A stretch of DNA of 64,000 nt, taken from assembly GCA_902168205.1 (NCBI GenBank), contig CABHOK010000003.1, forward strand, positions 1,612,001 to 1,676,000, read 5' to 3'. The notes beneath the pieces are model-generated. The model was not told the origin of the DNA, searched no databases, and was given only the letters and a program-made list of their open reading frames with translations. Every line of letters starts with the position of its first letter. Position 1 is the stretch's first letter. Of the stretch, positions 767 through 9,000 are shown one piece after another. Made by a program: the position numbers and the translations under genes. The stretch comes from an uncultured Chitinophaga sp. (lineage in GTDB: Bacteria > Bacteroidota > Bacteroidia > Cytophagales > Cyclobacteriaceae).

Positions 767-792
767 TACCGTAATATTGCGTTATTACGGTA
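767..792. promoter_or_regulatory. Palindromic ArsR-type operator upstream of arsR
   Basis: A perfect 10-bp inverted repeat, TACCGTAATA (767-776) and TATTACGGTA (783-792), with a 6-base centre, ends two bases before the arsR ATG. ArsR/SmtB repressors bind such palindromes over their own promoter, so autorepression relieved by arsenite is the natural reading. The same arm recurs once at 1141. Confidence 0.75.
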
Positions 793-794
793 CT

Positions 795-1124
795 ATGGGA
801 ATTACGAAATCAGAACTGTTTAAGAAACGACAAAACAGAATTGCTCATCTGGCGAAAGCATTTGATCACCCTGCGCGAGTCGCTATTATTGAGCATTTAC
901 TAAGTAATCAGACTTGTATCTGCAACGACCTTGTTGATGTATTGCCCTTGTCTCAATCAACCATCAATCAGCATTTGAAAGAACTCAAGAGCATCGGCAT
1001 CATTAAAGGAGAGATTGAAGGTCCAAAAGTCAATTACTGCATTGACGAAAAAGTTTGGGAGGAAGCCAAAGATATATTTATCAATATGTTCTCTCAATTT
1101 GTTTCGAAGAAGAACTGCTGTTAA
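795..1124 (+). CDS. arsR: ArsR-family metalloregulatory repressor
   Basis: A 109-residue winged-helix repressor of the ArsR/SmtB family. It should bind the operator that abuts its start and leave DNA when arsenite or antimonite binds cysteine thiols. The alpha-3 metal site is visible as CIC followed by NDLVDVLPLSQSTINQHLKEL, the recognition helix region (shown here only as its key residues C-x-C, then QSTINQHL). A CC pair forms the extreme C-terminus and may add thiol ligands. I chose ATG 795 over the upstream TTG at 777, which lies inside the operator palindrome. It is the first gene of an arsR-arsC-acr3-arsO run on one strand, which strongly supports an arsenic role. Confidence 0.9.
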   Translation: MGITKSELFKKRQNRIAHLAKAFDHPARVAIIEHLLSNQTCICNDLVDVLPLSQSTINQHLKELKSIGIIKGEIEGPKVNYCIDEKVWEEAKDIFINMFSQFVSKKNCC

Positions 1125-1189: not shown

Positions 1190-1828
1190 ATGTCAACACA
1201 CAACATTACCCTGTTTCCTTCTTTACAGCTTACGGTTACACAACTGGCGAAAGAATTTAATGAGATTCCTGCCGAACGTAAACCGGTACTGAACGAGCTA
1301 ACGCAATTCATTCAGAAGGGCATTGATAAAAAGCACCCGGTATATCTGAATTTCATTTGTACGCATAACTCCCGCAGAAGTCATCTTTCACAGATATGGG
1401 CTCAGACCGCTGCATATTATTTTGGTATTCCGGATTTATTCTGCTTTTCCGGTGGAACAGAAGCAACCGCATTTAATCCGAGAGCAGTTAAGGCTATGCG
1501 GGAAGCAGGTTTTGATATCGCCCAATCAACGGAAGGCGATAACCCTGTATATGAAGTAAAATACTCACCGGCTATACCGGGTATAAAAGCATTCTCGAAG
1601 AAGTACGATGATCCGTTCAATCACAATAAAGATTTTGCTGCCGTGATGACGTGTTCACACGCCGATGAAAACTGTCCTATAGTACATGGTGCCGTAAAAA
1701 GAATTCCGCTTCGTTACGATGACCCCAAAAATTTTGATGATACACCACTGGAAGCAGCCAAGTATACGGAGCGCGTTCATCAAATTGGCAGAGAAATATT
1801 GTTTGCCTTTTCGCAGGTAAAAGTATAG
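1190..1828 (+). CDS. arsC: Arsenate reductase of the low-molecular-weight phosphatase fold
   Basis: A 212-residue cytosolic protein with the CX5R catalytic loop of low-molecular-weight tyrosine phosphatases: C57-THNSR-R63, followed by SHLSQIWA. In ars operons this fold reduces arsenate to arsenite, using further cysteines and thioredoxin or a similar donor; C154-region cysteines ([10 protein letters not shown]) fit the role of resolving thiols. The protein is longer than the roughly 130-residue classical ArsC and carries about 50 extra N-terminal residues, as in many Bacteroidota homologues annotated simply as protein-tyrosine-phosphatase. It lies 10 bases before the arsenite pump, so product and exporter are probably co-translated. 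Reductase activity is inferred from context and family. Confidence 0.82.
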
Positions 1829-1838
1829 CAGCGCAGAT

Positions 1839-2885
1839 ATGAATAATACGAAGCAACTCAGTTTCCTGGATCGATACCTTACACTCTGGATTTTTCTCGC
1901 AATGATCCTGGGCGTTACTATGGGAAATATTTTTCCGATGGAAGCGTTCATGTCAAACTTCCAGGCGGGCACTACAAATATACTACTGGCAACCGGGCTT
2001 ATCGTGATGATGTATCCGCCTTTGGCAAAAGTCAGGTACGAGCACTTGGGAAAAGTATTTAAGAATGTAAAAGTTATCAGCTTGTCGCTTATCCTCAATT
2101 GGATCATCGGTCCGGTAGTAATGTTTGTACTGGCTGTTATTTTTCTGCGCGACAAACCAGAGTATATGACGGGGCTGATCCTGATAGGACTTGCACGGTG
2201 CATTGCCATGGTATTGGTATGGAATGATCTGGCCAAAGGAGATAAAGAATATGCTGCAGGGCTTGTTGCGTTGAACAGTGTTTTTCAAGTGCTTTTTTAT
2301 AGTTTGTTCGTCTGGCTGTTTATCACAAAACTTCCAGCGTACTTTGGTATAGCAGGCTATGAGATAAACGTGAGCATGGCTGACGTTGCAAAAAGTGTTC
2401 TGTTATATTTAGGTGTGCCTTTCGCTGCGGGTTTTCTCTCGCGTTTCTTTTTTGTAAAGACAAAAGGAGAGACCTGGTATAGAGATCATGTTATTCCAAA
2501 GATCAGTCCGCTTACGCTGATTGCTTTACTTTTTACCATCGTGATCATGTTCAGTTTCAAGGGTAAGCTGATCATGGAAATTCCACTGGATGTAGTGCGT
2601 ATAGCAATTCCACTCGTTATATATTTTATTGTCATCTTTATTTTGAGCTTCATACTTTCCAGGCAACTGGGTGCTAACTACGAAGAGAATGCTTCAGTAT
2701 CATTTACGGCAACCGGCAATAATTTTGAGTTGGCTATAGCGGTGGCAGTAGGAGTATTTGGAATTAATTCTGGGCAGGCTTTTGCGGGTGTTATAGGTCC
2801 GCTTATTGAAGTGCCTGCGTTGATCTTGCTGGTAAATCTTGCCTTTTGGTTTAAGAAGAAACTATATCCGGTTAAAGCTGTTTAA
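1839..2885 (+). CDS. acr3: ACR3-family arsenite efflux transporter
   Basis: A 348-residue inner-membrane protein with about ten hydrophobic segments, from residue 12 to residue 340. It carries the ACR3 signature [16 protein letters not shown], whose cysteine in the fourth helix is needed for arsenite transport in characterised members, and the later segment [13 protein letters not shown] typical of the bile-acid/ACR3 superfamily. It expels arsenite using the proton-motive force. The gene begins 10 bases after arsC and ends 3 bases before the next gene, so it is inside one operon under ArsR control. Confidence 0.93.
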
Positions 2886-2888
2886 CGT

Positions 2889-3965
2889 ATGGAGAACAGG
2901 TTCGATGTAATTGTTATTGGAGGCGGACAGAGTGGTCTTGCGCTTGGATACTATCTGAGACGATCCGGCCTGTCCTATATTATTCTTGACAACCAGGAAG
3001 AGCCTGGAGGTGCGTGGTTACACACCTGGAAATCGCTTCGTTTATTTTCTCCTGCGCAATGGAGTTCTCTTCCCGGCATGATCATGACCGGAGGAACGGA
3101 TTATTATCCGACAAGAGATGTGGCCATTGAATACCTGAAGTCGTACGAGACTAAATATAATCTTTCCATACGCAGACCGGTTCAGGTGACGCGGGTATAT
3201 AAACGCGAAGGGGAGTTCCAATTGGAAACGTCTGATGGATTATATTTTTCAAAAACAGTAGTAAGTTCAACCGGTTCATTTTCGAATCCCTATATACCTT
3301 CCTTCGAGGGTATAAATGTATTTAAAGGACAGGTGTTGCATTCAGGCGAGTATCAAACACCGGATATATTTACCGGCAAGCGCGTAGCCATTGTCGGAGA
3401 AGGAAATTCGGGTGCGCAGATACTGGCCGAAATTTCGAAAGTGACCGGCACACTGTGGATCACACAAAAGGAGCCGCGTTTTCTGCCGGACCACATCGAT
3501 GGACGTTTCCTGTTTGATGCGGCTACACAAATGTACGAAGCGCAAAAGGCAGGCAAGCGTTACAGACTGCCATCGCTTGGCGATATTGTTATGGTTGACG
3601 CTGTAAAGGAAGCACGCAGTAATAAAGTATATAACAGCAGTGTCAGACCCTTTCAATATTTTACAGAAGACTCGCTGGTGTGGTCAGATGGTCACGAAGA
3701 AAAAATAGATGTTGTTATTTTTTGCACCGGATTCAAAGCATCACTCAATCACCTGGACGCGCTGGGAGTGATTAACGAAGAAGGAAAAATTGATACGGAT
3801 GGTACAAGGGCAATACACATTCCCGGCCTTTGGCTTGTGGGGTATGGAAATTGGACAGGCTTTGCTTCCGCAACATTGATCGGTGTTGGTCGTTCTGCAA
3901 AGACAACGGTAGAGCAGCTCAGTACCTATATTACCAAACAGAAAGAATCACTTTCCTTGAAATAA
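2889..3965 (+). CDS. arsO: ArsO-like FAD/NAD(P)-dependent monooxygenase
   Basis: A 358-residue cytosolic flavoprotein. An N-terminal dinucleotide-binding motif, VIVIGGGQSGLALGYYLRR, binds FAD, and a second one near residue 165 (VAIVGEGNSGAQILAE) should bind NADPH; the arrangement is that of group B flavin monooxygenases and the ArsO family. FxGxH-type fingerprints of classical Baeyer-Villiger enzymes are only weakly matched. ArsO homologues are regular members of bacterial ars operons, but their substrate is not well established. The gene starts 3 bases after acr3, so it is translated from the same message. The product could act on an organic or trivalent arsenical; that is inference. Confidence 0.8.
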   Translation: MENRFDVIVIGGGQSGLALGYYLRRSGLSYIILDNQEEPGGAWLHTWKSLRLFSPAQWSSLPGMIMTGGTDYYPTRDVAIEYLKSYETKYNLSIRRPVQVTRVYKREGEFQLETSDGLYFSKTVVSSTGSFSNPYIPSFEGINVFKGQVLHSGEYQTPDIFTGKRVAIVGEGNSGAQILAEISKVTGTLWITQKEPRFLPDHIDGRFLFDAATQMYEAQKAGKRYRLPSLGDIVMVDAVKEARSNKVYNSSVRPFQYFTEDSLVWSDGHEEKIDVVIFCTGFKASLNHLDALGVINEEGKIDTDGTRAIHIPGLWLVGYGNWTGFASATLIGVGRSAKTTVEQLSTYITKQKESLSLK

Positions 3966-4000
3966 CAAGCGGCCGGAAAGCTTGCGTCTTTTTTGAAAGT
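3966..4000 (+). terminator. Weak terminator-like hairpin after the ars operon
   Basis: CAAGC (3966-3970) pairs with GCTTG (3980-3984), followed after two bases by a T-rich run. The stem is only 5 bp, and its right side overlaps the first GCGTCTT element of the sigZ promoter pair, so it may be incidental. Confidence 0.35.
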
Positions 4001-4010
4001 ATTGCGTCTT
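3982..4010 (+). promoter_or_regulatory. GCGTCTT direct-repeat pair upstream of sigZ
   Basis: TTGCGTCTT occurs at 3982-3990 and 4002-4010, exactly 20 bp apart, the first copy running into a T tract. The second copy ends 21 bases before the chosen sigZ start. The same arrangement precedes the small peptide gene and the PAP2 gene. CGTC is a common core of ECF sigma -10 elements, so autoregulation by SigZ is proposed; a dimeric regulator binding two helical turns apart would also fit. Confidence 0.6.
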
Positions 4011-4031
4011 AGTCAGGTAAAAGTATATCAA

Positions 4032-4574
4032 ATGATTATGGAATCGACAGTAGCACAAGGAAGCTTTTTTGAAAATGAACTGAAAGGTTTTGTTTTTAAA
4101 CGGGTGAAAGACAAAGCGCTTACGGAAGACATTGTTCACGATGTTTTTATACGGGTGCAGGATAAGATTGGACAACTACAAGAACCGGAAAAAGCCACCG
4201 GGTGGATATACCAGATTACCCGGAACATGATCATCGATCACTACCGAAAACAATCAAAATATATAGATGCTTCTGAGGTTAACAGTCATGATGAAGTTTT
4301 GAATTTTAATGAATGCGTTGAAAACACGCTCCGGAAACTGCTGTTAACGCTTCCACTGAAGTACAGAGAAGCGCTTCAAATGGCAGAGCTTGAAGAACTG
4401 TCGCAAATAGAAATGGCTAAACGTCTTGGTGTTTCATACTCGGGTGTTAAGTCGCGCGTGCAACGTGCCCGGCAAATGTTAAAAGAAAAGTTGCATGAAT
4501 CGTTGATCATCAAAACCGATGCGTATGGAAATATAGTGGTTTGCGTAGACCGTGATCCGAGTTGTTGCAAATAA
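4032..4574 (+). CDS. sigZ: ECF-type RNA polymerase sigma factor, SigZ-like
   Basis: A 180-residue sigma-70 family protein with region 2 (about residues 10-85, including IVHDVFIRVQDKI and GWIYQITRNMIIDHYRK) and region 4 (about 105-160, LPLKYREALQMAELE and the helix-turn-helix SQIEMAKRLGVSYSGVKSR). The tail YGNIVVCVDRDPSCCK ends in a cysteine pair, as I recall for SigZ-type factors, and may sense thiols or metals. ATG 4032 is preferred to TTG 3993 because the latter sits among the GCGTCTT repeats; ATG 4038 is an alternative. No anti-sigma gene is next to it. It lies directly after the ars operon and is flanked by three matching promoter-like pairs. Confidence 0.78.
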   Translation: MIMESTVAQGSFFENELKGFVFKRVKDKALTEDIVHDVFIRVQDKIGQLQEPEKATGWIYQITRNMIIDHYRKQSKYIDASEVNSHDEVLNFNECVENTLRKLLLTLPLKYREALQMAELEELSQIEMAKRLGVSYSGVKSRVQRARQMLKEKLHESLIIKTDAYGNIVVCVDRDPSCCK

Positions 4575-4624
4575 AAGTTGACATAATTAAAGCATATCTC
4601 ATATATAGTATAATAGTATAAATG

Positions 4625-4648
4625 AAAGGCGGGACTGTTCCCGCCTTT
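4625..4648. terminator. Bidirectional terminator between sigZ and the Cys-rich peptide gene
   Basis: AAAGGCGGGA (4625-4634) and TCCCGCCTTT (4639-4648) form a perfect 10-bp stem with a 4-base loop. T tracts lie on both strands, so it can end sigZ transcription and the opposing small gene. Confidence 0.9.
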
Positions 4649-4655
4649 TCTTGTT

Positions 4656-4718
4656 TTAGCAGCAACCACTGCCACCGCAACATCCACCACCTTCGATGGA
4701 AATAATCAGATCTTCCAT
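4656..4718 (-). CDS. 20-residue glycine/cysteine-rich peptide
   Basis: A very short but well-framed gene encodes MEDLIISIEGGGCCGGSGCC. It is supported by its position: a promoter-like GCGTCTT pair lies 53 bases upstream in the correct orientation and a strong bidirectional terminator lies 7 bases after its stop. The N-terminal half is acidic and hydrophobic; the C-terminal half is only Gly, Ser and four cysteines in two CC pairs. It could be a small thiol peptide that binds arsenite or another soft metal, or the precursor of a modified peptide, with EGG resembling a double-glycine cleavage site. No maturation enzyme is visible in the window. No family is recognised. Confidence 0.6.
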   Translation of the reverse strand: MEDLIISIEGGGCCGGSGCC

Positions 4719-4770
4719 AGTAAATAACTTTTATGTGAATATTTAGTAATTGAACATTTTGTTCGGATAG

Positions 4771-4799
4771 AAGACGCATGCTCCTGAAAAAAGACGCAA
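4771..4799 (-). promoter_or_regulatory. GCGTCTT direct-repeat pair facing the Cys-rich peptide gene
   Basis: On the minus strand TTGCGTCTT (4799-4791) runs into a T tract and a second TGCGTCTT (4778-4771) follows exactly 20 bp later, repeating the layout found before sigZ. It points toward the small peptide gene starting at 4718. Confidence 0.6.
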
Positions 4800-4817
4800 C
4801 CCGCATCAAGAAAAATA

Positions 4818-4846
4818 ACGCGTCTTTTTAGTCTGCATCACGTCTC
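4818..4846 (+). promoter_or_regulatory. GCGTCTT-like pair upstream of the PAP2 gene
   Basis: GCGTCTTTTT at 4820 is followed by ACGTCTC at 4840, again 20 bp apart, and the second copy ends 19 bases before the ATG at 4866. The second copy differs at its first and last bases. Confidence 0.55.
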
Positions 4847-4865
4847 AGGGAAAAATTTATTTCAC

Positions 4866-5756
4866 ATGAAAAAGTATTATGCCTTTCTGTTTCTTGTATT
4901 ACTCCGCTTCAGTAATTCCAATGGCCAGAGCAAATTCAATCTTGCCTCTGTTAGCGATCACTACAAGGCGTTGCAATCCATAAGTAATATGCCGAACCAA
5001 CAGCGCGCATGGATGGATACTATAAAATATCCACCGGCAGAATATGGAACTTCTATAGTATATCTGATAGTGAAGCCGTATTACTTGTCCGATGCGCAGG
5101 TAAAAGAATTAAGCGAGAGCGTGAAGTTTCCGGCAAACAGTTCTGACCAGGTTCGAAAGGAGTTAGACTATCTTTTGGAACTTCAGAACAAGCGAACACC
5201 TGAGCAGATAAAGCGAGTTGAATTTCTGGGAGATATTGGTTACTGGCCTTCGGTAAATATGGTACCATCACATACTTCTTATGCACATAATCTGCAGGAC
5301 CTGTTCTTTGAGGGAAGAGAATTGCTGGGAGATAATGTTAATTCGAAAAACTTTCCGAAGATCTCAAAGTTGCTTCAGGGTGTTATGCAGGATATGCGCA
5401 TCATGGAATTTACCATCAAGTATAAATTGCTGAGGCCGCGTCCGTATCATCTCGAGCCGATGTTAAAGCCGCTGACAAAAATTAACTCGCCATCGTTTGC
5501 CAGCGGCCATACACTTTGGGCGTTTATTCAGGCCTATACGTGGAGTGAGATTGTGCCCGAAAAGCAACCACAGTTCATCGCCCTGGCTGAAGAGATCAGA
5601 CGATCAAGAGAGATTATGGGGATACACTATCCAAGCGACAACGAAGCGTCACGGCAGGTAGCCTATAAAATGCTTCAATACTATTTTCAGAATGCTGCTT
5701 TTAATAAAGATTTGAGAGAAGCGATTCTTGAATGGAAAAAGCAATCAGGTGAGTAG
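4866..5756 (+). CDS. Secreted PAP2-superfamily phosphatase (class A acid phosphatase-like)
   Basis: A 296-residue protein with an N-terminal signal peptide (hydrophobic residues 4-15, cleavage near SNSNGQ), so it acts in the periplasm or outside. The three PAP2 motifs are present: KYKLLRPRP (KX6RP), PSFASGH with H215, and SREIMGIHYPSD with H254 and D258 (SRX5HX3D). This superfamily includes non-specific acid phosphatases, lipid phosphatases and vanadium haloperoxidases; the soluble form without membrane helices fits class A acid phosphatases. Vanadate, arsenate and phosphate all bind such pockets in known members. Its upstream region carries the motif pair shared with sigZ, which suggests joint regulation. 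The substrate is unknown. Confidence 0.85.
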   Translation: MKKYYAFLFLVLLRFSNSNGQSKFNLASVSDHYKALQSISNMPNQQRAWMDTIKYPPAEYGTSIVYLIVKPYYLSDAQVKELSESVKFPANSSDQVRKELDYLLELQNKRTPEQIKRVEFLGDIGYWPSVNMVPSHTSYAHNLQDLFFEGRELLGDNVNSKNFPKISKLLQGVMQDMRIMEFTIKYKLLRPRPYHLEPMLKPLTKINSPSFASGHTLWAFIQAYTWSEIVPEKQPQFIALAEEIRRSREIMGIHYPSDNEASRQVAYKMLQYYFQNAAFNKDLREAILEWKKQSGE

Positions 5757-5795
5757 CTTCCCTACATAAAACGTCCATTAACGATTTCAAAATTC

Positions 5796-5882
5796 CTTGC
5801 ACAAAGGCCACAAAAAAGATACGAAGTTTCACAAAGTATATATTTCCCTGTCCGTTGTGTCTCCTCGTGGCCTTTGTGTTTC
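5796..5882. repeat. Intergenic CTTTGTG-type repeat with inverted ends
   Basis: CACAAAGGCCAC near 5799 is the reverse complement of GTGGCCTTTGTG near 5868, and the space between holds further pieces such as TTTCACAAAG. Related words recur at 9620-9662 and 21771-21845, always in intergenic DNA. Confidence 0.6.
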
Positions 5883-6053
5883 CGTATTTTATTTCCTGAT
5901 AACGATATAACCGATAAAGAACAATAGATAATAATAAGTGTTTAAACTCGAACCTCTACACTATATTTTATAACCTGCACGCAACATTCTTTTCACATTT
6001 TAAAAGTAGTTTAGCAACCGGACTGTAATTTTTCCGAACTAAACCCTATATAC

Positions 6054-9000
6054 ATGAAAAGTCATTACCCGTTATGGTTTTTACTTATCGCATTTTTGAC
6101 TGGAGCACAGTGGGCTTCGGCACAAGTGCATCTTAATCTTATCAATTCACCGTATCAACAGCAGTTTGATTCACTTGCCAGTGCAGGCACTACCAATGAT
6201 ATAGCGACATTGCCGGCCGGCTGGACCTTCAGTGAGTCAGGTACCAATGCCAACACTACGTATGCAGCTGGTACAGGTTCAGCAAATGCCGGTAACACCT
6301 ATAGCTTCGGACTGACAGCTAATGACCGCGCACTCGGAGGTTTACTTTCCGGATCGCTTAACTCAACCGTTGGTGCCGGGTTCATCAACCATACCGGCAG
6401 TACCATTACAGCATTACACATACAGTACCGCGGTGAGCAATGGCGTCTTGGCGCAACAGGGCGTGCAGCCGACCGACTCGATTTTCAATACAGCACCGAT
6501 GCTACTTCCATAACATCGGGTACATGGACCGATATAGATTCACTTGATTTCATCAGTCCGGTTACAACGGGTACAGCAGGCGCACTCAATGGTAACGACA
6601 CGCTTAACAACACCATCATTACCTTTACTATAAATGGATTGTCGATTGATGATGGTGAAACGTTTTACCTGCGCTGGCTCGACTTTAATGTAGCAAGCTC
6701 GGATGATGGTTTGGCAATTGATGATTTTATACTGACACCCTTCGGTGTACCTTCGAATGAACCGGCTATCCAGGTAGTGCCTGCATCGCTGAACTTTGGC
6801 GATGTTACCGTACATGAGACAAAGCAACTTCGTTACCAGGTGATCGGTGCCAACCTGCAGGATTCCATCGCGATCTTTACTTTTAATAACGCCTATACTA
6901 TATCTGCGGATAGTATACATTTTGCCGGATCTGCTATAGTACCGGCTACCGGAGGTTTTGTATATGTACAGTTTGCACCGGTAGCACCGGGACTTTCCAG
7001 GGATTCATTGTTGCATATCAGCGGCACTACGTCAAAAGTGGTGCATGTGGAAGGCAATGGTTTTGATTTTGTGAGCAGTGTTATATCCATCGCGGAAGCA
7101 CGCACCAAACCGGCAGGACAAAAAGTTACGGTTGGTGGACGAATTACTGTAGCGAACGAACTGGGCAACCCTGCCTATGTACAGGATGCCACGGGGGGCA
7201 TACCGGTTTTTGATTATGCTTTTGCTACCCATGTTTCCATTGGCGACTCGGTAATTGTTACCGGACCTATAGGTGTGTTTAACGACCAGGTACAGATCAG
7301 TGGCAGTGGTATAGATTTTATACAGCCTGATTCTTCAAAGCGCTATATAGATCCGGCACCTATCGCTATCGGTCAACTGGCCGCGTACGAAGGACAACTG
7401 GTTACGGTTGACAGTGTAGAACTGGTTAATAAGGCTTTTGTGTTTTATCCGCAAAGCACCGATCGCATGACGGCAGATGGTATACAGGCCGATCTGCGTA
7501 TTGACGGAGACACCGATATACCCGGACTTACCAAGCCGCAAGGAGTTGTGTCCATCACCGGTGTTGTAGGTCGTTTCCGTACCAATGCTCAGCTGCTGCC
7601 ACGTTTCAGTGCAGATATACCGGGAGCTCATGTACCATCGCCTGTTTCAGATAGTATTCCGAAAAGTAAAACACTCGATGTTGTTACCTGGAACCTGGAG
7701 TTCTTCGGTGCGAAAAAAGAAGACTATCGTAATGAAGAGTACGGTCCGGAAGATGAAGCACAGCAACTCGTAAATGTAAAACGTGTACTGGATTCATTGC
7801 AGGCTGATGTCATCGCTGTTGAGGAAGTATCAGACGATTCGTTATTTACCGTGCTGATCTCGCAATTGGGTAAATATAGGGCTACCTGCTCTGATCGTTA
7901 TTCGTATTCTTTTGATGGACCCAGCGATGAATTCCCTCCGCAGAAAGTATGTTTTATCTACGACACAACAACTGTAAATGTACGCGCGGCACGTCCGATG
8001 TTTGAAGCGTTGTACGATGAAGCACGCACGACTAACCCGAATATATTACCAAACTATCCCGGAGGAAGTCCTTCAAGTTTTTATTCCAGCGGACGCCTTC
8101 CGTATTTGTTAACGGTTGATGCTACCATTGGAGGCGTAACCGAGCGCATATCCTTTGTTGGTATACATGCTAAATCTGGTTCTACGGCAGCCGACAGAAG
8201 TCGCAGAGAGTATGATGGTGCTGTGCTGAAGGATTCGCTCGATTTACACTTTGCCAATGAGCAGGTAATTATACTCGGTGATTTGAACGATGATCTCGAT
8301 CAGTCGATTGTTACCGGTATGGAAAGTCCATATATAGCGTTTATACAAGACTCGTTGAATTATACCGGCATTACGAAAAACCTCAGTGATGCAGGAGCAA
8401 GATCAACGATCAGTTTCCAGGATGTGATCGACCACCAGATCATCACGAACGACCTTTTGCAAGAGGTTATCGGAGGTTCTGAGCAGATCATAACACCGTT
8501 CCGTTTTATCACGAATTATGCTGCCACTACATCCGATCACTTGCCGGTAATTGTACGTTACCAGTTGCAGCCAACGCGTGTTAATTTTACAGCAAGCGGT
8601 ATAACGTTACCGGAAGACAGTGCATCTCATCACGTATATGTTCAGGCAGATAAACAATCGACATCGGCCAAACAGATTGTTATAGCCTTACAGGGCGATG
8701 CAACCTATGGACAGGATTTTGTAACCGAGCCTGCAGCCGTTGATAATAAAATTACAGTGACGCTTTCGGCGGATACATTGCTGACGTCATTCCGAATCAT
8801 AATGCTGAACGATGAAGCCGATGAACTGCTGGAGACAACTACCTTCACGATTTTGGCAGAAGATGGTGTAGCCGGAGGAACGCAGGCAAACTTTTCACTT
8901 TCCATTGAAGACAACGATGTGCCAATTATTGCTTTTGCCGAGATACTGCCCAGCGCCAAAGAGGGCAGCGGTATATATAACCTGAAACTGAAATTGAATA

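Follow-up and report, generated by a model that had tools for sequence, protein, structure and literature searches.

A 20-residue peptide open reading frame (ORF) on the minus strand of the window, by which we mean the whole 64,000-nucleotide stretch of DNA that was analyzed, is well supported as a real, overlooked gene. Its product is probably a very small arsenic-binding peptide, a role that we regard as probable since in related bacteria similar tiny Cys-rich genes with the same kind of switch mostly adjoin arsenic-resistance genes. At the sequence level, conservation of the frame, sharing of the promoter, membership of a family and the arsenic context are all established, as detailed below.

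RESULTS

A Cys-pair micropeptide gene in an arsenic island

As summarized in Table 1, the ORF adjoins a sigZ-like gene and a set of arsenic genes, which supported the preliminary description of an unannotated type of gene in a sigZ context. It runs from an ATG at 4718 to a TAA ending at 4656 and encodes MEDLIISIEGGGCCGGSGCC, and the 20-residue minus-strand frame described earlier was thus confirmed at exactly those positions. The peptide contains four Cys in two pairs, with GG preceding the first pair, and has no signal-peptide-like stretch. Searches of Pfam and NCBIfam at E ≤ 1 with the window's peptide and that of genome G034 returned no family, although 20 aa is short for any HMM, and for this reason the failure of both peptides to match a metallothionein model in these searches is a weak negative. 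Pfam also yielded no ArsD domain in the peptide, and nothing among the PDB sequences matched the window's peptide at E ≤ 10, in line with the earlier statement that no described family fits. By itself, the pattern is only mildly unusual: ORFs with at least two CC pairs and a CC end gave 9 matches, in 7 of 100 simulated windows. The case for a real gene therefore rests on conservation.

The sigma factor encoded next to the peptide gene scored 161.3 bits with TIGR02959 (cut-off 168.65) and 154.9 bits with NF007215 (cut-off 212), and since it falls below the cut-offs of these curated SigZ models, we refer to it as SigZ-like. Cys-pair ends were seen on several island proteins, namely, NCC on ArsR (ending at 1124), SCCK on the SigZ-like protein (ending at 4574), and SCCG on a second monooxygenase in a related locus (L034 8849-10180). 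In the window's family, SigZ-type promoters recurrently precede the gene of the secreted-looking PAP2 phosphatase.

Table 1. Features of the window and of related loci

Feature	Record	Position	Strand	Basis or remark
ArsR-family regulator, C-terminus NCC	window	777..1124	+	NF033788 55.8 bits, cut-off 55
ArsC-like protein, low-molecular-weight phosphatase type	window	1190..1828	+	partial, below-cut-off matches to arsenate reductase models
ACR3 arsenite efflux transporter	window	1839..2885	+	TIGR00832 437 bits
ArsO flavin monooxygenase	window	2889..3965	+	NF040505 482 bits
SigZ-type promoter before sigZ (putative autoregulation)	window	3984..4010	+	exact motif match
SigZ-like ECF sigma factor gene, C-terminus CVDRDPSCCK	window	4038..4574	+	TIGR02959 161.3 bits; start picked by likeness to relatives
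Terminator-like hairpin between sigZ and peptide gene	window	4624..4649	.	10-11 pairs; scan lists both strands
20-aa Cys-pair micropeptide gene	window	4656..4718, stop codon included	-	ORF call, conserved frame, alignment of 17 family members
GAACA-AAA-TGTTC palindrome, hairpin near predicted 5' end of peptide mRNA (or operator)	window	4752..4764	-	kept in close relatives
SigZ-type promoter of peptide gene, GCGTCTTTTTTCAGGAGCATGCGTCTT	window	4771..4797	-	one of 3 exact genome-wide motif matches; like elements before all 20 family members
SigZ-type promoter before PAP2 gene	window	4820..4846	+	exact motif match
PAP2-superfamily protein, secreted-looking by eye, divergent neighbor of peptide gene	window	4866..5756	+	PF01569
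Four-CC-pair protein copies	L034; L035; L037; L038; L072; L178	7886-8083; 7262-7462; 7291-7488; 7551-7757; 1727-1933; 1559-1756		often behind SigZ-type promoter
58-aa Cys-pair, metallothionein-like protein adjoining sigZ	L219, Rhodococcus opacus plasmid	4670-4846
Small Cys-rich metallothionein-like proteins beside SigZ-like genes	L113 (Oceanospirillaceae MAG); L083 (Pontibacter); L020 (G050)	6736-6891; 6745-6903; 1130-1270

Conservation of the frame among relatives

In a peptide search of 390 family genomes, the frame was found to be kept in G000, G001, G004, and G005 (E ≤ 1.4 × 10−4), i.e., in four of the seven genomes of the genus, the window's own included, and in three of the six others; G072, from another genus, was also matched (E = 0.025). 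The variants within the genus are MEDLIISIEGGGCCGGTGCC and MEDLTISIEGGGCCGSGCC, and the sole length change among these copies is the deletion of one whole codon (G000 versus G004). Between G000 and G004, the coding sequence (CDS) carries 8 synonymous differences (about 13 sites) and 1 nonsynonymous difference (about 47 sites), and its identity (51/63) is higher than those of sigZ (392/540) and the 5′ untranslated region (18/32). G000 and G001 differ by 2 synonymous and 2 nonsynonymous changes. Loss or breakage of the frame in related sigZ loci had been proposed earlier as the observation that would speak against the gene; on inspection, three of the six other genus genomes retain the frame, with a whole-codon change only.

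Divergent versions of the peptide occupy the same gap between sigZ and PAP2 in other genera. No synonymous excess was seen for G206 versus G188 (2 synonymous versus 6 nonsynonymous) or for two Hymenobacter-type CDSs (6 versus 5). A further 11 weak matches in the 390 family genomes, 14 in 395 class genomes (3 of the loci viewed), and 10 of 11 in 194 order genomes (5 of these 10 loci were re-read and held no candidate) were judged by eye to be due to chance. Since the search missed divergent members of other genera, absences in the peptide sequence searches carry little weight.

A family of micropeptides behind SigZ-type promoters

We defined the family by a SigZ-type promoter placed before a Cys-pair ORF of 19 to 26 aa; members were collected by sigZ, peptide, and motif searches. 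This yielded 20 peptide genes, with products of 19 to 26 aa and 4 to 7 Cys, at 20 loci from 19 genomes (8 genus labels and 2 family labels) and a Hymenobacter plasmid. The sigZ loci gave MGDDCCGGGCCGGGSSTGCC in G034 and MNNEPDDCCDGTCCGGNTSGCC on the Hymenobacter plasmid NZ_CP110138.1, the latter near ACR3 and arsC, and the peptide search gave MNHEPTDCCDGTCCDGNTSGCC in G888. The remaining members come from loci reached via the sigZ and PAP2 promoters. Reading of the sigZ-PAP2 gap in such loci added MKNEDPGSCCGDDCCGGITTGCC, MENQFDPGNCCGGNTDCCGGVTSGCC, MKNVIIQKDGGCCGGLCDC, and their kin, and G127 carries a copy of the G034 peptide, as read by eye. Sixteen members were found without the use of their own promoters, and the other four (G206, G188, G185, and G305), comprising MENQLDPGACCGDDCCGGLNSGCC, MVNQHDPGDCCGDDCCGGLIGGCC, MECKTDPGCCDGGCCGEIIIGCC, and MENLLDPGGCDDSCCGGIRTGCC, were found through them, so that for these four the presence of the promoter is true by construction. 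The peptide gene of the Hymenobacter plasmid is missing from the distributed gene table, which is incomplete.

All 20 members are preceded by −35/−10-like elements resembling G[CA]GTC[TC]TT and CGT[CT], 17 to 22 nt apart, under a lenient test (GCGTC, GAGTC, or GCATC located 17 to 23 nt before CGTC or CGTT) in which spacings of 17 to 18 nt arise from overlapping CGTC pairs. Fifteen have the arrangement of the window, being located between sigZ and PAP2 on the opposite strand (PAP2 itself being unchecked for G149 and G233). In G034, G127, and G888, the peptide gene comes after sigZ and shares its strand; on the plasmid, it is located about 1.5 kb after sigZ, and the G072 copy stands alone. The Cys pairs (CC or CxC) are set on mostly Gly-rich linkers, and the peptides end at the last Cys, which belongs to a CC in most members and to a CxC in five g87 peptides; in G305, one Cys of a pair is replaced. 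Across genera, little besides Cys and Gly is conserved in a 17-member alignment, and no partner domain was found.

The arsenic context varies among these loci. Arsenic queries were unmatched within the 13 to 16 kb read at G034, G127, G093, and G245 and in the 10-kb stretch around the G072 peptide, and the sole match at G185 was ArsR-like. The 570-contig assembly of G072 showed no close SigZ, the best match (28% identity) being a generic-looking ECF. ArsN1-like acetyltransferase genes, below cut-off, occur in several relatives' loci. Plasmids searched by tblastn with two of the peptides and with the four-CC-pair protein described below gave no match.

An alternative Cys-pair product near the same gap

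Among 17 sigZ-PAP2 loci of the window's family (PAP2 of G005 being cut by the contig end), 12 contain a micropeptide and 5 have a four-CC-pair protein nearby, and we saw none of these 17 with both. This protein, of 65 to 68 aa, is present in G002, G003 (twice), G006, and G021, lies behind a SigZ-type promoter in G003, G006, and G021, and follows the pattern ..SCCxPK..CCxPS..EENxGACCAQPxDGSACC.., for which the copies scanned (L034 and L072) had no Pfam or NCBIfam match. Within the genus, a genome-wide search detected it in G002, G003, and G006; the four peptide genomes gave no match at E ≤ 0.1. The existence of two alternative Cys-pair products in one regulon argues that selection acts on the thiols. 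G021 (L038 5360-6487), G002 (L033 4068-6249), and G003 (L034 8145-8726) each have a second SigZ-like sigma factor gene within this locus or close to it.

The SigZ-type promoter motif

The upstream regions of sigZ, the peptide gene, and PAP2 have a motif in common, GCGTCTTTT with CGTCT about 21 nt further on. The pattern GCGTCTTTTTN10RCGTCTY was derived by eye from these three sites, and its absence elsewhere is therefore the informative part: the 7.3-Mb genome contained 3 exact matches, every one of them here, and no further site at 1 mismatch. Allowing up to 3 mismatches gave 47 matches genome-wide versus 115 for a reversed control, and the weaker sites are accordingly regarded as background. 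A regulon in which the motif stands before sigZ, the peptide gene, and PAP2 and nowhere else in the genome is thus likely and well supported by the sequence. Given that the motif precedes the gene of the SigZ-like sigma factor and is absent elsewhere, we infer that this factor reads the promoter.

These results refined the earlier claim of a promoter-like pair upstream of the frame, as a promoter is present but its type had been misassigned; it is of the ECF/SigZ type, like those before sigZ and PAP2. A consensus scan of positions 3500 to 6500 listed no sigma-70 site on the minus strand directly ahead of the ORF.

In 295 family genomes, TGCGTCTTTTN12CGTCT had 28 matches in 22 genomes, compared with 2 for the reversed control. 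Twenty-seven were located directly upstream of sigZ, PAP2, arsM, ArsI/CadI-like, Cys-pair-protein, or peptide genes (identities checked in part, with those of sigZ and PAP2 checked by tblastn for most, not all, of these genomes), and the remaining one precedes a PhzF-like gene. The arsM behind the motif in L170 passes NF008823, and of the ArsI/CadI-like genes, that of L185 is above cut-off and those of L179 and L186 were assigned by likeness.

The ends of the predicted mRNA

The palindrome that would lie close to the 5′ end of the peptide mRNA is preserved at 13/13 or 12/13 positions in three close relatives. Taken alone, the 5′ hairpin in G000 is weak (−3.2 kcal/mol, fold z about 0). Across the family, a hairpin directly follows the −10 element with a genus-dependent sequence (GAACA/TGTTC, GGCATGAA/TTCATGCT, TGTGATC/GATCACA, CCTCTT/AAGAGG, or TGGCC/GGCCA). 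At the mRNA start, 17 of the 20 members have a stem of at least 5 Watson-Crick pairs, compared with 11 of 63 other promoters of this type that precede a frame. The stem is present in 7 of 8 genera when each was represented by one member, and it arose in 484 of 2,600 shuffles of a 13-member set; this hairpin played no part in finding the members. G034, G127, and G888 fall short of it. The palindrome may serve as an operator; as an operator repeated across the window, it was rejected, with 1 exact copy and 6 sites at ≤1 mismatch versus 2.34 expected.

The hairpin between sigZ and the peptide gene had been described as a perfect bidirectional terminator. It is indeed listed on both strands, but "perfect" was an overstatement, since its T-run is good for the plus strand (the sigZ side) only, the one read on the minus strand (CATTTATA) being weak. 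A stem of at least 7 pairs (G-T allowed) follows the ORF in 19 of the 20 members, the best in G233 having 5 pairs, and T-runs are weak after several family ORFs. The 149-nt RNA of G000, terminator hairpin included, folds with a z score of −3.05 relative to shuffles.

SigZ-like loci in distant bacteria

A SigZ search of genome contigs matched at least 414 relatives, the best 80 of which were split by E value into 16 SigZ-like (≤10−20) and 64 other ECF loci. Among these best 80 of at least 414, an arsenic gene was present in the locus (E ≤ 10−15) for 10 of 16 SigZ-like versus 1 of 64 other ECF factors, one arsM query in this test having been taken from L082, itself one of the 16. The promoter regex likewise matched 10 of 16 versus 1 of 64 loci. 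At least 2 Cys were counted in the last 40 residues of 13 of 16 versus 5 of 64 proteins, two of the tails being read beyond the true end, and a small Cys-rich ORF was found nearby in 5 of 16 versus 2 of 64, with those of L084 and L085 looking like chance.

The arsM directly behind the promoter passes the NF008823 cut-off in L073, L077, L080, L082, and L084. The records with arsM right behind a SigZ-type promoter, i.e., these five and L170, come from several phyla, which gives SigZ the look of a widespread sigma factor for arsenic. In L085 and L086, SaoE-like or Cu/Zn-efflux-like transporter genes, below cut-off, lie behind the promoter, and L074 has a DF-family protein there, just below cut-off. 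Of eight relatives scanned with TIGR02959, L073, L074, L077, L080, L082, and L040 pass, and L072 (167.8) and L113 (141.3), both scanned as partial matches, fail. The small Cys-rich proteins of L113 and L020 carry the promoter motif. Four of 6 plasmid SigZ records were read; annotated arsenic genes (ACR3 and arsC) were present in that of Hymenobacter alone, the stretches from the Rhodococcus, Priestia, and Arenibacter plasmids showing none.

DISCUSSION

On balance, we favor the reading that the peptide is a SigZ-controlled mini-metallothionein for As(III) inside a small arsenic-stress regulon. The SigZ-like ECF sigma factor would transcribe the peptide gene from its own promoter into an mRNA of only some 150 nt, which the 5′ hairpin may protect from decay and the terminator would end, and the peptide would be made from this mRNA. 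Here, the regulon would comprise sigZ itself, the PAP2 gene, and the peptide, and elsewhere arsM, arsI-like genes, or larger Cys-pair proteins. Arsenic would be the signal, perhaps sensed via the C-terminal Cys pairs of SigZ by a logic like that of CorE (PMC8999054). The paired thiols would bind trivalent arsenic (as three-coordinate As-S3) or a similar soft metal(loid), and the peptide would hold As(III) until ACR3 or ArsO deals with it. Arsenite or soft-metal chelation, already suggested in the preliminary description, is plausible and now better grounded.

Several other readings were weighed against this one. The ligand or signal could differ from As(III), with other soft metal(loid)s or thiol stress (Sb, Cu, Hg, methylarsenicals, arsinothricin, or electrophiles) in its place, which is possible in view of the below-cut-off SaoE-like or Cu/Zn-efflux-like transporter genes that follow the promoter in L085 and L086; the below-cut-off ArsN1-like acetyltransferase genes and the promiscuity of thiols point the same way, yet the recurrent neighbors are genes for ACR3, ArsR, ArsC-like proteins, and ArsO, or arsM, and we consider this reading unlikely. 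We also judge it improbable that the peptide serves to carry metalloids or as an adaptor in signaling, passing As(III) to ACR3, ArsO, or ArsM or resetting SigZ by removing As(III) from the C-terminal cysteines of that protein. Such a role would fit a gene that adjoins sigZ and has its promoter type, as well as the paired Cys close to the C-terminus of SigZ-like proteins, but the peptide lacks a partner domain, little besides Cys and Gly is conserved across genera, and the G072 copy has no sigZ nearby.

The remaining readings concern the nature of the gene product. A RiPP precursor, in which a short leader with a GG end would precede a Cys core that an enzyme modifies, is suggested by the GG ahead of the first Cys pair in the window's peptide and by the Cys/Gly/Ser-rich C-terminus; however, no modification enzyme was noticed on reading the lists of neighboring ORFs, and the leader, about 10 aa long, lacks conservation among genera, leaving the earlier idea of a substrate for peptide modification unsupported and this reading very unlikely. 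Equally slim are the chances that the functional product is a small RNA with an incidental or secondary ORF: the unit is short, has a 5′ hairpin and a terminator-like hairpin, and folds better than shuffles in G000 (with the terminator hairpin included), but it is the RNA sequence on either side of the ORF that diverges, the peptide being retained through synonymous changes and an indel of one whole codon, and the Cys-pair pattern persists across genera. Least credible of all is a chance ORF; comparable ORFs did arise in the simulated windows, but conservation, the promoter, and the recurrent slot across loci speak against it.

The mini-metallothionein that we favor has relatives in kind. Bacterial metallothioneins (e.g., SmtA) are small and Cys-rich, bind soft metals through thiols, and have no catalytic domain. 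The peptide resembles them in build and, putatively, in binding, whereas it is much shorter than metallothioneins, carries its CC pairs on Gly linkers, is preceded by an ECF-type promoter, and matches no Pfam or NCBIfam model at E ≤ 1. The arsenite metallochaperone ArsD carries vicinal Cys pairs, as does the peptide, likewise within an arsenic locus; unlike ArsD, the whole peptide consists of 20 aa and matches nothing in Pfam or NCBIfam. Engineered tetracysteine tags for biarsenical dyes capture trivalent arsenic with two vicinal Cys pairs a few residues apart, an arrangement also found here, but the natural peptide has CC-GGSG-CC or CC-GSG-CC and no residue beyond the second pair. Thus, a small thiol peptide for metals is known in kind; its size, regulation, and family appear to be new.

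CorE-type ECF sigma factors are linked to copper and possess a Cys-rich C-terminal sensor domain with a CXC linker motif (PMC8999054). The SigZ-like proteins also have a Cys-rich C-terminus, but in contrast to copper-linked CorE, they are closest to SigZ models, and many are encoded beside arsenic genes. In the accessible portions of the open-licence literature, including PMC8999054, PMC12194929, PMC8871858, PMC9045368, and PMC10141391, we found no link between SigZ and arsenic, and a table of Bacillus subtilis sigma factors in PMC10141391 lists SigZ as just "ECF." More tentatively, SigZ-like ECF sigma factors might be cross-phylum direct sensors of arsenic via their C-terminal cysteines, with a regulon that would include some of the smallest dedicated As(III) chelators encoded by genes, a gene-encoded counterpart of phytochelatin; this is a possibility to which we give somewhat less than even weight.

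The peptide would represent a natural minimal thiol peptide for arsenic, open to synthesis and direct testing, and for SigZ the locus points to a regulon and a signal. Genes of about 20 codons can be overlooked in annotation even where, as a family, they keep their promoter type, their genomic slot, and mostly their 5′ hairpin across genera.
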